Source: Gammaproteobacteria bacterium (GTDB lineage: Bacteria > Pseudomonadota > Gammaproteobacteria > JAPPPA01). From it: a stretch of 64,000 nucleotides of DNA. The notes beneath the pieces are model-generated. The model saw only the letters and a list, made by a program, of their open reading frames with translations, was not told the DNA's origin and made no database searches. Position numbers and translations under genes: made by a program. The stretch is taken from assembly GCA_030425645.1 (NCBI GenBank), contig JAUHZK010000005.1:62001-126000 (forward strand), given 5' to 3'. Within the stretch, counting starts at the first letter, position 1; each line of letters begins with the position of its first letter. Positions 10,035 to 56,964 of the stretch are shown here, in pieces.

Positions 10035-10104
10035 AAAAATGGGACAGACCCGTTTGGGTCTGTCCCATTTTTTATTTCGGTTGGGTCTGTCCCATTTTTT
10101 ATTT
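10035..10104. repeat. GGGACAGACCC hairpin with tandem half-copy, probable terminator
   Basis: A 17-base perfect stem (10035-10051 with 10056-10072, loop GTTT) is built on GGGACAGACCC and ends in a T-run, so it can terminate the Mpo1-like gene. A 24-base direct copy of its right half with the T-run follows (10054-10077 and 10081-10104). The second copy overlaps the last codons of the convergent gene. The motif is one that recurs between genes in many gammaproteobacteria (general knowledge), so it may be a REP-like mobile repeat as well. Confidence 0.75.
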
Positions 10105-12763: not shown

Positions 12764-13171
12764 ATGGGAGCTTTTGCATTACATCCGCAGCTAGCGGCCG
12801 ACACCATAGAAGTCGGCTCCGCCGGTTTATGCTCGGTACTGCTAATGAACGACAGCCAATACCCCTGGCTGATTCTGGTACCGCAACGGCCTGATATCCG
12901 TGAGGTATACGACCTAAGCGCCAGCGACCAAAGCCAGCTGTGGCAAGAGGTCAGTCATTGCGGCCAAGGGCTGATGGACTTGCACCGTGGTTTTAAACTC
13001 AATATCGGCGCCTTGGGCAATATGGTGCCGCAGCTACATATCCATGTGATTGCCCGCCAAACCGATGACCCGGCTTGGCCTGGGCCGGTGTGGGGAGTTA
13101 AGCCTGCAGTGGCTTATTCTGAGGATGAGTTAGCTGCGTATTTGCCGCAGTTGCGGGAGTTGCTCGGATAG
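12764..13171 (+). CDS. HIT-domain protein
   Basis: This 135-residue histidine-triad protein would hydrolyse or transfer nucleotides from small nucleotide conjugates. The signature appears as PQLHIHVIAR (about residues 88-97): two of the three His of the classic HxHxH are present and the first position is Gln, a variant common in this proteobacterial subgroup. Upstream, NDSQYPWLILVPQRPD matches the usual N-terminal half. It follows the hydrolase gene directly. Confidence 0.9.
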   Translation: MGAFALHPQLAADTIEVGSAGLCSVLLMNDSQYPWLILVPQRPDIREVYDLSASDQSQLWQEVSHCGQGLMDLHRGFKLNIGALGNMVPQLHIHVIARQTDDPAWPGPVWGVKPAVAYSEDELAAYLPQLRELLG

Positions 13172-13211
13172 CACTCGCATAGGTCTGTATCACTTGCGGA
13201 TGAGCCGGCTA

Positions 13212-13798
13212 GCGGTTGTTTCGGGCCTGCCACTTTGCTGGTGTCGGTTTCGGCCTTTAGAAGGTTTTATACGCTTTCGGTAAGTTTCCTTGGTGCGGGC
13301 CGAGTGACTTTTCTTTGTCTCGCCAAAGAAAAGTAACCAAAAGAAAGGCGATCCCACCATGCGGCCCCTCCGGGGTCCCCTGCGCTACTCGCCAAATCGA
13401 GCGCCTGCGGAACTCGCTTCGCTCAAACAGGCCGCAGGCTCCATCTCGATTTAGCTCCGTTGCTCGGCCGCATAGAAGGCAAGGGTACTGCTAACCAGCT
13501 GCATTGGTAGCGTGAGGTCTTTCCCTAAAGGCCCCTTTTGCGCAGCTGAGCATCGCAGGGGATTTTGGATTGAGGGAGCGGCTTGTTTGAGCGCAGCGAG
13601 TTCCCGCGACCGCCAAAATCCGCGAGAAGCGCAAGGAACCCCGAAGGGGCTGCGCGGTTGGCGGTGGCTTTTTTGGTTACTTTTTTCGCCAAGGAAAAAA
13701 GTAACTCGGCCTCACCAACAAACTTACCGAAAGCGGATAGAACCCTCTAGGGCCGAAACAACCACGAGCCAAGGTTAAGCCCCTAAACCGACACCAAG
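13212..13798. repeat. Long palindromic repeat element, copy A
   Basis: No gene lies in this 640-base gap. Positions 13240-13765 match 56405-56942 in the same orientation at high identity. The element is itself a giant imperfect palindrome: the left arm (GGTTTCGGCC ... CGCTTTCGGTAAG ... GGGCCGAGTGACTTTTC ... AAAGAAAAGTAACCAAAAG) is mirrored by the right arm (GTTACTTTTTTCGCC ... AAGTAACTCGGCC ... CTTACCGAAAGCG ... GGGCCGAAACAACC). The inner parts also pair, around TTTGAGCG-AGCGAGTTCC. In this copy outer pieces extend to 13212 and 13798. It has no coding signature and could be a non-autonomous mobile repeat or a structured DNA/RNA site. Confidence 0.85.
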
Positions 13799-13811: not shown

Positions 13812-14591
13812 TTAGATAAACACCCGCCGCAAAATCTCAGTCGTGCGACTCTCTGGATTCTCACGAATCTTCTGCTCTTCCTTACCCAGCTGCTTAAACA
13901 AACCATCCAAGGCGCCGTTGGTAACGTGATCATCTAGATTTAGATCAACATCAGCAATGTTGTTGTCTTTTAGGAACATGGTTACCGGCGCGGCAATGCG
14001 TTGCAGCTGTTTGTAGCTACGCGTGACGCCGGTATCAGATGTCGCCCGCGATACTAATGGACGAAAACGTTTATACAGCTCACCCTCGGTTGCGTTACGC
14101 AGAAATTCTGTAGCCGACTGAGGGCCGCCTTCGACAATACTTTTTACATCCGCCAATTGCAGGCTTCGAATGGCATTGCCAAAAATTTCAGCCGCCTCGG
14201 GTACCGCACTCTCTGCGGCGCGATTCAAGGTGACGATAAAGTTGTCGACCATTTCTTCTTGGCCCAGCTTCCGCAACGGCCCTTCCAAATAGCTCAGTTC
14301 CTGCGGGGCTTCGATACGCACCAAAGGATTGGCAGAAAAGCCGCCGGTTTTGCCAAGCTGATTGATAGCGCGCTCAACACCAACCGCCAGCGCTTCGCGC
14401 ACGCCTTCTACCATCTCGGTTTCAGATAACACTGCCAAGGCGTTCTGTTCGATGGAGCTACTGTCGCCACCACCAAATAAACCGCCAAAGGTTTCCTCAA
14501 ACCAGTCCCCAAAACCCGCTTGCGCAGGTGCACTGATGGCCACGCTCGTGGCGATAAGCAATACAGATAAATAACGCACATTACACCCCAT
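13812..14591 (-). CDS. DUF4197 exported protein
   Basis: The protein is 259 residues from the ATG at 14591, which places a proper signal peptide (RYLSVLLIATSVAISAPAQA) at the N-terminus. An in-frame ATG at 14636 would add 15 residues but lies inside two terminator hairpins. The mature protein is helical, with GFGDWFEETFGGLFGG near its start and the AINQLGKTGGF/NPLVRI region and later FKQLGKEEQKIR typical of DUF4197 proteins. Function of the family is unknown; the protein is probably periplasmic. Confidence 0.82.
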   Translation of the reverse strand: MGCNVRYLSVLLIATSVAISAPAQAGFGDWFEETFGGLFGGGDSSSIEQNALAVLSETEMVEGVREALAVGVERAINQLGKTGGFSANPLVRIEAPQELSYLEGPLRKLGQEEMVDNFIVTLNRAAESAVPEAAEIFGNAIRSLQLADVKSIVEGGPQSATEFLRNATEGELYKRFRPLVSRATSDTGVTRSYKQLQRIAAPVTMFLKDNNIADVDLNLDDHVTNGALDGLFKQLGKEEQKIRENPESRTTEILRRVFI

Positions 14592-14593
14592 AG

Positions 14594-14625
14594 AAAAAAC
14601 GTTGGCTATTAGACCAGAAGCCAAC
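14594..14625 (-). terminator. Second of two stacked terminators upstream of DUF4197
   Basis: On the minus strand, arms GTTGGCT (complement of 14619-14625) and AGCCAAC (complement of 14601-14607) are followed by a run of six T (14594-14599). It lies only 3 bases before the DUF4197 start codon, so it may attenuate transcription entering that gene. Confidence 0.6.
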
Positions 14626-14636
14626 AAAAAATTCAC

Positions 14637-56377: not shown

Positions 56378-56404
56378 CACTTCCAGGCTCCTAATAGCTT
56401 GGGT

Positions 56405-56942
56405 GGTGTCGGTTTCGGCCTTTAGAAGGTTTTTACGCTTTCGGCGAATCTGTTGGTGCGGGCCGAGTGACTTTTCTTTGCGTCGCCAAAGAAAAGTAAC
56501 CAAAAGAAAGGCGATCCCACCATGCGGCTGCTTCGCAGTCCCCTGCGCTACTCGCCAAATCGAGCGCCTGCGGGAACTCACTCCGCTAACGCTCCGTTCA
56601 AACAGGCCGCAGGCTCAATCTCGATTTAGCTCCGTTGCTCGGCCGCATAGAAGGGCAAAGGTACTGCTAACCAGCATTCTCCTTTACGTGGAGTCTTTCC
56701 TCTAAGGCCCCTTTTGCGCAGCTGAGCATCGCAGTGGATTTTGGATTGAGGGAGCGGCTTGTTTGAGCGTTAGCGAGTTCCCGCGACCGCCAAAATCCGC
56801 GAGAAGCGCAAGGTACCCCGAAGGGGCTGCGCGGTTGGCGGTGGCTCTTTTGGTTACTTTTCTCGCCATAGAGAAAAGTAACTCGGCCTTACCAACAAAC
56901 TTACCGAAAGCAGACGGAACCCTCTAGGGCCGAAACAACCAC
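56405..56942. repeat. Long palindromic repeat element, copy B
   Basis: This is the second copy of the element at 13240-13765, in direct orientation, with the same terminal motifs (GGTGTCGGTTTCGGCC at the left, GGGCCGAAACAACCAC at the right) and the same internal mirrored arms. Differences are mostly in the inner loop (for example an insert near 56585-56600, CTCCGCTAACGCTCCG). It fills the 587-base gap between the FMN reductase and the next gene; no coding sequence is seen in it. Confidence 0.88.
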
Positions 56943-56964
56943 CAGAAAACCTATCCCACCATGT

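Follow-up and report, generated by a model that had tools for sequence, protein, structure and literature searches.

Background

The PIT or TM_ECO element of Escherichia coli, one of the intrastrand triplex repeats of proteobacteria, is a G/C-rich intergenic motif present in multiple copies, whose pyrimidine-purine-purine order makes a triplex possible within one DNA strand (PMC4666352). Holder et al. reported that these intrastrand triplex repeats fold in vitro, that no stable triplex was detected in vivo and no regulatory role was found, and that the surroundings of the repeats are more variable (PMC4666352). At five sites two E. coli motifs are inverted with respect to each other, and these pairs always consist of a type A and a type B motif (PMC4666352).

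Other intergenic palindromic or MITE-like repeats, such as YPAL, ERIC and RU/BIME, are dispersed, gene-free palindromes like the element described here. In RNA, H-type pseudoknots with a major-groove triple helix occur in telomerase RNA and in the SAM-II and preQ1-II riboswitches, all of them single RNAs with known roles; telomerase RNA and MALAT1 serve as comparison cases for RNA triple helices.

In this work we analyzed a palindromic gap between two genes in a 64,000-nucleotide stretch (the window) of the genome of a gammaproteobacterium (G000). The palindrome belongs to a dispersed non-coding repeat family, whose full-length members carry two inverted folding modules.

Results

Extent and folding of the palindrome

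From an alignment of 11 full copies and an analysis of their ends, copy A of this hetero-palindrome was delimited to 543 nt (Table 1). The interval 13212-13798 given in a preliminary description of the window contains the repeat, but its true ends are at about 13230 and 13772, and the rest corresponds to an end-like motif and unique flank. The same description spoke of a giant palindrome with pairing outer and inner arms; four pairs of inverted repeats were indeed found (Table 1), and the fold computation it had proposed gave an RNA-fold energy of -305.9 kcal/mol for the 543-nt stretch, versus -196.2 (sd 6.0) in dinucleotide shuffles (z = -18.3, 0/100).

The ends common to the copies are of the type TTTGGCT(A/G)GTG...GTTTCGGCC, and the flanks beyond them are unrelated. 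At some A ends (L001, which is copy A, L004, L008, and the right flank of L009) a second end-like unit is located 29-30 bp further out; an element with such a doubled A end may carry a tandem end or be nested within an older copy. Neither an open reading frame nor a sigma-70-type promoter was found within the element, and the Rfam models gave 0 matches, even at E 5 for the palindrome region. The element is non-autonomous, as had been suggested, in the sense that it is accompanied by neither an open reading frame nor a transposase.

Table 1. Coordinates of the element and its surroundings in the window
Feature	Position	Strand	Details
Left neighbour gene	12764..13171	+	135 aa, putative HIT-like by eye; points into the element
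Extra end-like motif beyond left end	13207..13228	+	also at A ends of L004 and L008 and in extra partial copy beside L009
Hetero-palindrome, copy A	13230..13772		543 nt; A module left, B module right
Left terminal inverted repeat	13234..13255	+	TTTGCTGGTGTCGGTTTCGGCC; common to A ends of copies
Inverted repeat pair	13258-13287/13720-13749		90%
Inverted repeat pair	13298-13312/13697-13711		93%
Inverted repeat pair	13329-13342/13671-13684		100%
Inverted repeat pair	13409-13479/13534-13604		72%
Module A pseudoknot/triple helix (predicted)	13304..13354	-	S1a GGGATCGCC, linker TTTCTTTT, hairpin loop GCGAGA
Module A long stem	13359..13473	-	read from sequence; P1 and P2 covary across taxa; loops
Module A P1	13359-13366/13466-13473
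Module A P2	13394-13401/13445-13452
Module A P3	13403-13410/13432-13439
Module A P4 hairpin	13365-13375
Module A conserved tip	13411-13429		AACTC..TCAAACA
Variable centre	13474..13539	.	~350 bp of other DNA instead in copy L015/L013
Module B long stem	13540..13655	+
Module B P1	13540-13546/13649-13655
Module B P2	13560-13568/13613-13621
Module B conserved segment	13548-13558		GAGCATCGCAG
Module B conserved segment	13624-13636		GAGAAGCGCAAGG
Module B P4 hairpin	13639-13649		GAA loop
Module B pseudoknot/triple helix (predicted)	13658..13705	+	S1a GTGGC; linker TTTTTT 13669-13674; hairpin 13676-13705
Right terminal inverted repeat	13751..13772	-	TTGGCTCGTGGTTGTTTCGGCC (minus-strand reading); common to B ends
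Right neighbour gene	13812..14636	-	274 aa; points into the element
Second full copy (L007)	56398..56945	.	89% identical to copy A

Each half of the palindrome is a folding module

The palindrome had been regarded as an imperfect mirror of itself. Its arms do pair, but they correspond to a conserved folding module, with a predicted pseudoknot and triple helix, that is present tail to tail in two versions, A and B, which have diverged from each other. Going outward from the centre, each module has a long stem whose internal loops are conserved, then a small hairpin, and lastly an H-type pseudoknot, all on the outward strand. The pseudoknot block has the order GGG-S1a-L1-GG-hairpin, in which S1a forms base pairs with the loop of the hairpin (TCGC/GCGA, TGTC/GACA, CGGC/GCCG, TGGT/ACCA and others), and each such motif is at the foot of a conserved structured arm of ~190 nt, the conserved loops of which are GAGCATCGCAG and GAGAAGCGCAGGGAACC. 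P1 and P2 of this arm covary, with permutations as good in 0/3,000 and 0/5,000 cases, respectively. On the outward strand, loops of the type C(GNA)G close 36/63 P4 tips and 12/24 P3 tips, and the complementary TNC type was found in none. C(GNA)G loops are unusually stable in DNA, and are favoured in DNA rather than in RNA; hence the reading tilts, short of proof, to single-stranded DNA.

The linker matches the stem under Hoogsteen rules

In Hoogsteen terms the pyrimidine linker L1 is exactly complementary, in parallel orientation, to the purine strand of the hairpin (linker/stem tract pairs are, for example, TTTCTTTT/AAAGAAAA and TTCTCTTT/AAGAGAAA), and a triplex with the linker parallel to the stem purine strand is predicted in each module. 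L1 is exact at offset 0 in 50/50 outward-strand sequences representing three tract types, and at any shift the mean match is about half; the nine low-scoring rows of the offset list are the same sites on the opposite strand. In 24 diverse sequences the Hoogsteen match of linker and stem holds at 192/192 positions (184 in the best of 20,000 permutations), and the S1 pairing at 93/96 (78 in the best permutation). An alignment of pseudoknot and stem (A1), made of 24 sequences hand-picked from the matches, one per type, with few mismatches remaining in the full list, has 98.1% of its cells paired and 65 two-sided changes versus 20.7 in shuffles; its covariation score is 0.421, versus at most 0.153 after sliding by one to three columns.

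Changes in the tracts are also informative individually. Within G000, the B arms switch jointly between AAAAAA/TTTTTT and AGAAAA/TCTTTT, with the single exception of L008. At interruptions of the purine strand, L1 carries G opposite T-A (L163, L180) and T opposite C-G (L038, L157), which are the known choices in parallel triplexes. The pyrimidine strand of the stem has T in place of C in one sequence (G036:C226), where L1 still matches the purine strand. With its Y and R positions left free, a search pattern had matches in 19/274 genomes of the class, and its reversed control 0 in the same 274 genomes; a covariance model restricted to the pseudoknot recovered 27 places in G000 and had matches in 15/120 genomes of the phylum. 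As in intrastrand triplexes of the PIT/TM type, the pyrimidine, purine and third-strand tracts are all on one strand, although the TM_ECO consensus CCCTCNCCCN3-6GGGNGAGGGN3GGGNGAGGG is not matched, the tracts here being A/T-rich. By this predicted triplex the element is of the same kind as the PIT/TM repeats, and is not TM_ECO itself.

It has been proposed for the E. coli TM motifs that they are passive repeats which cause genome instability and have no role of their own. For the present element we consider this highly improbable. PMC4666352 does tie triplex repeats to variable loci, with no regulatory role found, and one junction between two element sites in a sister genome is rearranged or misassembled (see below); nonetheless, several independent stems and the triplex covary across many genera, which implies that the fold is maintained.

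Copies in the genome and at the orthologous sites of a sister species

The preliminary description knew of two copies 43 kb apart. The second one exists (L007, Table 1), between convergent genes for an FMN-reductase-like protein and a 328-aa protein, but G000 (2.75 Mb in 16 contigs) has 11 full-length and 4 altered copies, the other full ones being 88-93% identical to copy A. Instead of only two copies without shared ends there are, in consequence, about 15 with common ends. Arms A and B are ~70% complementary and remain distinct in every copy. Among the altered copies, L012 has an insert of ~80 bp in its B arm, which is also present in the truncated L017, and L014 consists of the left half only. 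The centre of L013/L015 (G000:C10:113267-114104) is swapped for ~350 bp of unrelated DNA, and the copy at the matching site of the sister genome G001 is of normal length.

In addition, G000 has 8-9 short single-module relatives, in which the inner module alone is found behind a different hairpin. Those designated L018, L019, L021, L022, L024, L026, L029 and L030 have the inner stem in common with the palindrome and the hairpin GTCTATTTTTGAGGCATCAAAAATAGAC; the A/T run adjoining this hairpin also resembles a triplex linker, and 7/8 of these relatives lie between convergent genes.

Five sites (L001, L004, L005, L008, L010) are empty in G001, where the same gene pairs are 0-90 bp apart, and four of these hold an ordinary two-way terminator made of an A-run, a hairpin and a T-run. 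Therefore, copies come or go, and two genomes cannot separate gain in G000 from loss in G001. G001 has copies at the sites matching L003, L006/L007, L009, L014 and L015, and since about five sites are shared some copies must be old. The arms cluster largely by genome, with the A and B groups separate, and the orientation differs between G000 and G001 in 3/6 site comparisons, which indicates that copies have been homogenised within genomes or that sites have been re-occupied. In G001 (L069, G001:C160) the neighbours of two different element sites are joined, the left one of the first to the right one of the second; this L006/L007 junction reflects either recombination between copies or a misassembly.

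The supposed mobility of the element finds support in the five empty sites; against it, no target duplication was visible and no matching transposase was found. The alignment of the copies, which had been recommended to define ends and target duplications, gave the former at ~13230 and ~13772, and neither a target-site duplication nor an exact junction was visible at the filled/empty pairs, the flanks of which are too diverged from the empty sites. An ordinary MITE, i.e. a shortened insertion sequence mobilized through its terminal inverted repeats by a DDE transposase and carrying the inner structure as baggage, would account for the dispersed repeats of many copies, for the terminal inverted repeats of ~22 bp, and for the empty sites. 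This origin is nevertheless improbable: a search of G000 for a transposase or any other gene-bearing element with the same ends found none, target duplications are not visible, and across families the inner fold is conserved while the ends are lineage-specific. The chance that the element is of the REP type and moved by a Y1 (RAYT) transposase is slighter still, almost negligible; one Y1_Tnp gene exists in G000, but this only Y1 transposase of the genome has flanking copies of a REP of its own, TGGGACAGACCCATTTGGGTCTGTCCCA, which bears no similarity to the palindrome, and a RAYT/REP origin was rejected. This REP surrounds the Y1 gene at L201 2850-2877, 3515-3542 and 3979-4006, and another is present at 10037-10070 of the window.

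Copies lie between convergent genes

In G000, all full copies (11/11) and 14/15 of all copies are between convergent genes, many of them 6-30 bp from a stop codon, versus 56/385 junctions (14.5%) in a 464-kb sample of G000 with genes called by our own codon model; by our arithmetic, the binomial p of this excess is about 1e-9 or lower. The element had been described as not explained by any gene, and it is gene-free, but every full copy has the stop codon of a convergent gene on either side. The sole non-convergent copy, L012, is upstream of an htpX-like gene and has same-strand genes on both sides. Co-directional genes mostly flank the modules found in other taxa, and a convergent location was for that reason ruled out as a general rule of the family.

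A canonical terminator is absent on both sides at 7/11 full-copy sites; among background convergent gaps, 12/44 have a two-way terminator. This absence, together with L001 and L008, where G001 has an ordinary terminator at the orthologous site and G000 only the element, is consistent with a structured RNA, in which read-through transcripts of the neighbours would end in a U.A-U/C+.G-C triple-helix pseudoknot that blocks exonucleases or stops transcription, the palindrome being a two-way 3'-end element. The H-type pseudoknot, with its linker placed as in RNA triplexes of the telomerase type, is compatible with this proposal. However, there is no Rfam match and no sigma-70-type promoter was found inside the element, C(GNA)G loops are favoured by DNA rather than RNA, and inward transcription from the neighbours reads the proximal arm on the complementary strand; we regard a structured RNA as a possible but rather doubtful explanation.

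Distribution in other taxa

That related AAAAGTAACCAAAAG blocks recur in other proteobacteria, as the preliminary description stated, was borne out. From the left arm, a 43-nt block recurs exactly in Aggregatibacter, Actinobacillus, Mannheimia, Bibersteinia, Rodentibacter and Lonepinella, and also in Silvimonas, Comamonadaceae, Thiogranum and several MAGs; in many of these carriers it is part of one arm of a 300-600-bp palindrome with the same plan. The module, often paired alike, is found in Pasteurellaceae, Silvimonas, Burkholderiales and other Gammaproteobacteria, and across families the inner pseudoknot, predicted triplex and stems are conserved. With the queries used, BLASTN gave no match in 5,426 E. 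coli genomes, and phage and viral contigs likewise yielded no copy.

A MAG labelled Bacteroidales (L114) contains the 43-nt block twice in exact form, by contamination or transfer. Several Pasteurellaceae copies (L096, L138, L143, L144, L112, L149) have DNA-uptake signal sequences in the centre between the modules, of the AAGTGCGGT or ACAAGCGGT types and often as inverted pairs. G/C-rich triplex-like runs of the E. coli TM kind, CCCTCTCCC..GGGAGAGGG, are located in or beside the elements L119 and L082. An integron attC array was a candidate for the gene-poor region of G035, which showed only inner-module fragments among ordinary repeats.

Discussion

The explanation that we favour, to which we would give an even chance, is that of a dispersed non-coding, probably non-autonomous mobile element, composed of two diverged, mutually inverted copies of a folding module, that works as a folded single-stranded nucleic acid, probably DNA. 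The modules would act as folded single-stranded DNA upon strand separation, and a putative enzyme supplied in trans would recognise the folded ends and move or copy the element into gene 3' ends. We propose that copies survive at these junctions because they are harmless there and can separate the two transcripts, and that arms A and B stay different owing to the instability expected of a perfect palindrome of 540 bp. The function, the moving enzyme and the level of action are what we infer, and the choice of DNA over RNA would follow from the loop type and the triplet rules.

More tentatively, and with a good deal of doubt, the family could represent an undescribed class of mobile elements widespread in Beta- and Gammaproteobacteria, whose two ends would be recognised as folded single-stranded DNA by a putative enzyme. 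Each end would be a structured arm having hairpins capped by GNA loops and, in pseudoknotted form, a triple helix, the third strand of which would co-evolve with the stem under Hoogsteen rules, interruptions included.

The base-by-base upkeep of a three-stranded match by natural selection across many genera is rare evidence for a triple helix that matters in living bacteria. The co-changing linker, stem and pseudoknot loop provide ready-made variants for testing, and gene pairs that hold the element in one genome and lack it in the other are a natural experiment on the effect on convergent transcription and on the mode of movement.

No match by sequence was found in the literature. The family, A/T-rich, pseudoknotted and long-armed, is without a description in the literature searched, and to judge from the sequences it would be widespread and little described. 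The repeats tabulated in PMC2267715 are mostly of 40-170 bp, and no pseudoknot or triplex architecture is described there. Ppu-1 of Pseudomonas putida, listed in a survey of stem-loop families (PMC2267715) as an intergenic, structured family of 617 bp with 39 copies, is similar in size, copy number and location, and could be of the same kind; compared by description only, it is a lead and not a match. With telomerase RNA and the SAM-II and preQ1-II riboswitches the module has in common a pyrimidine linker 1 running alongside the stem 2 purine strand in parallel; in contrast to them, it is part of a paired, dispersed genomic element that may act as DNA or as RNA. With respect to TM_ECO, which is a motif of 34-37 nt (PMC4666352), the present element differs in its A/T-rich tract, in a linker locked by a pseudoknot, and in its arrangement as a palindrome of ~540 bp.
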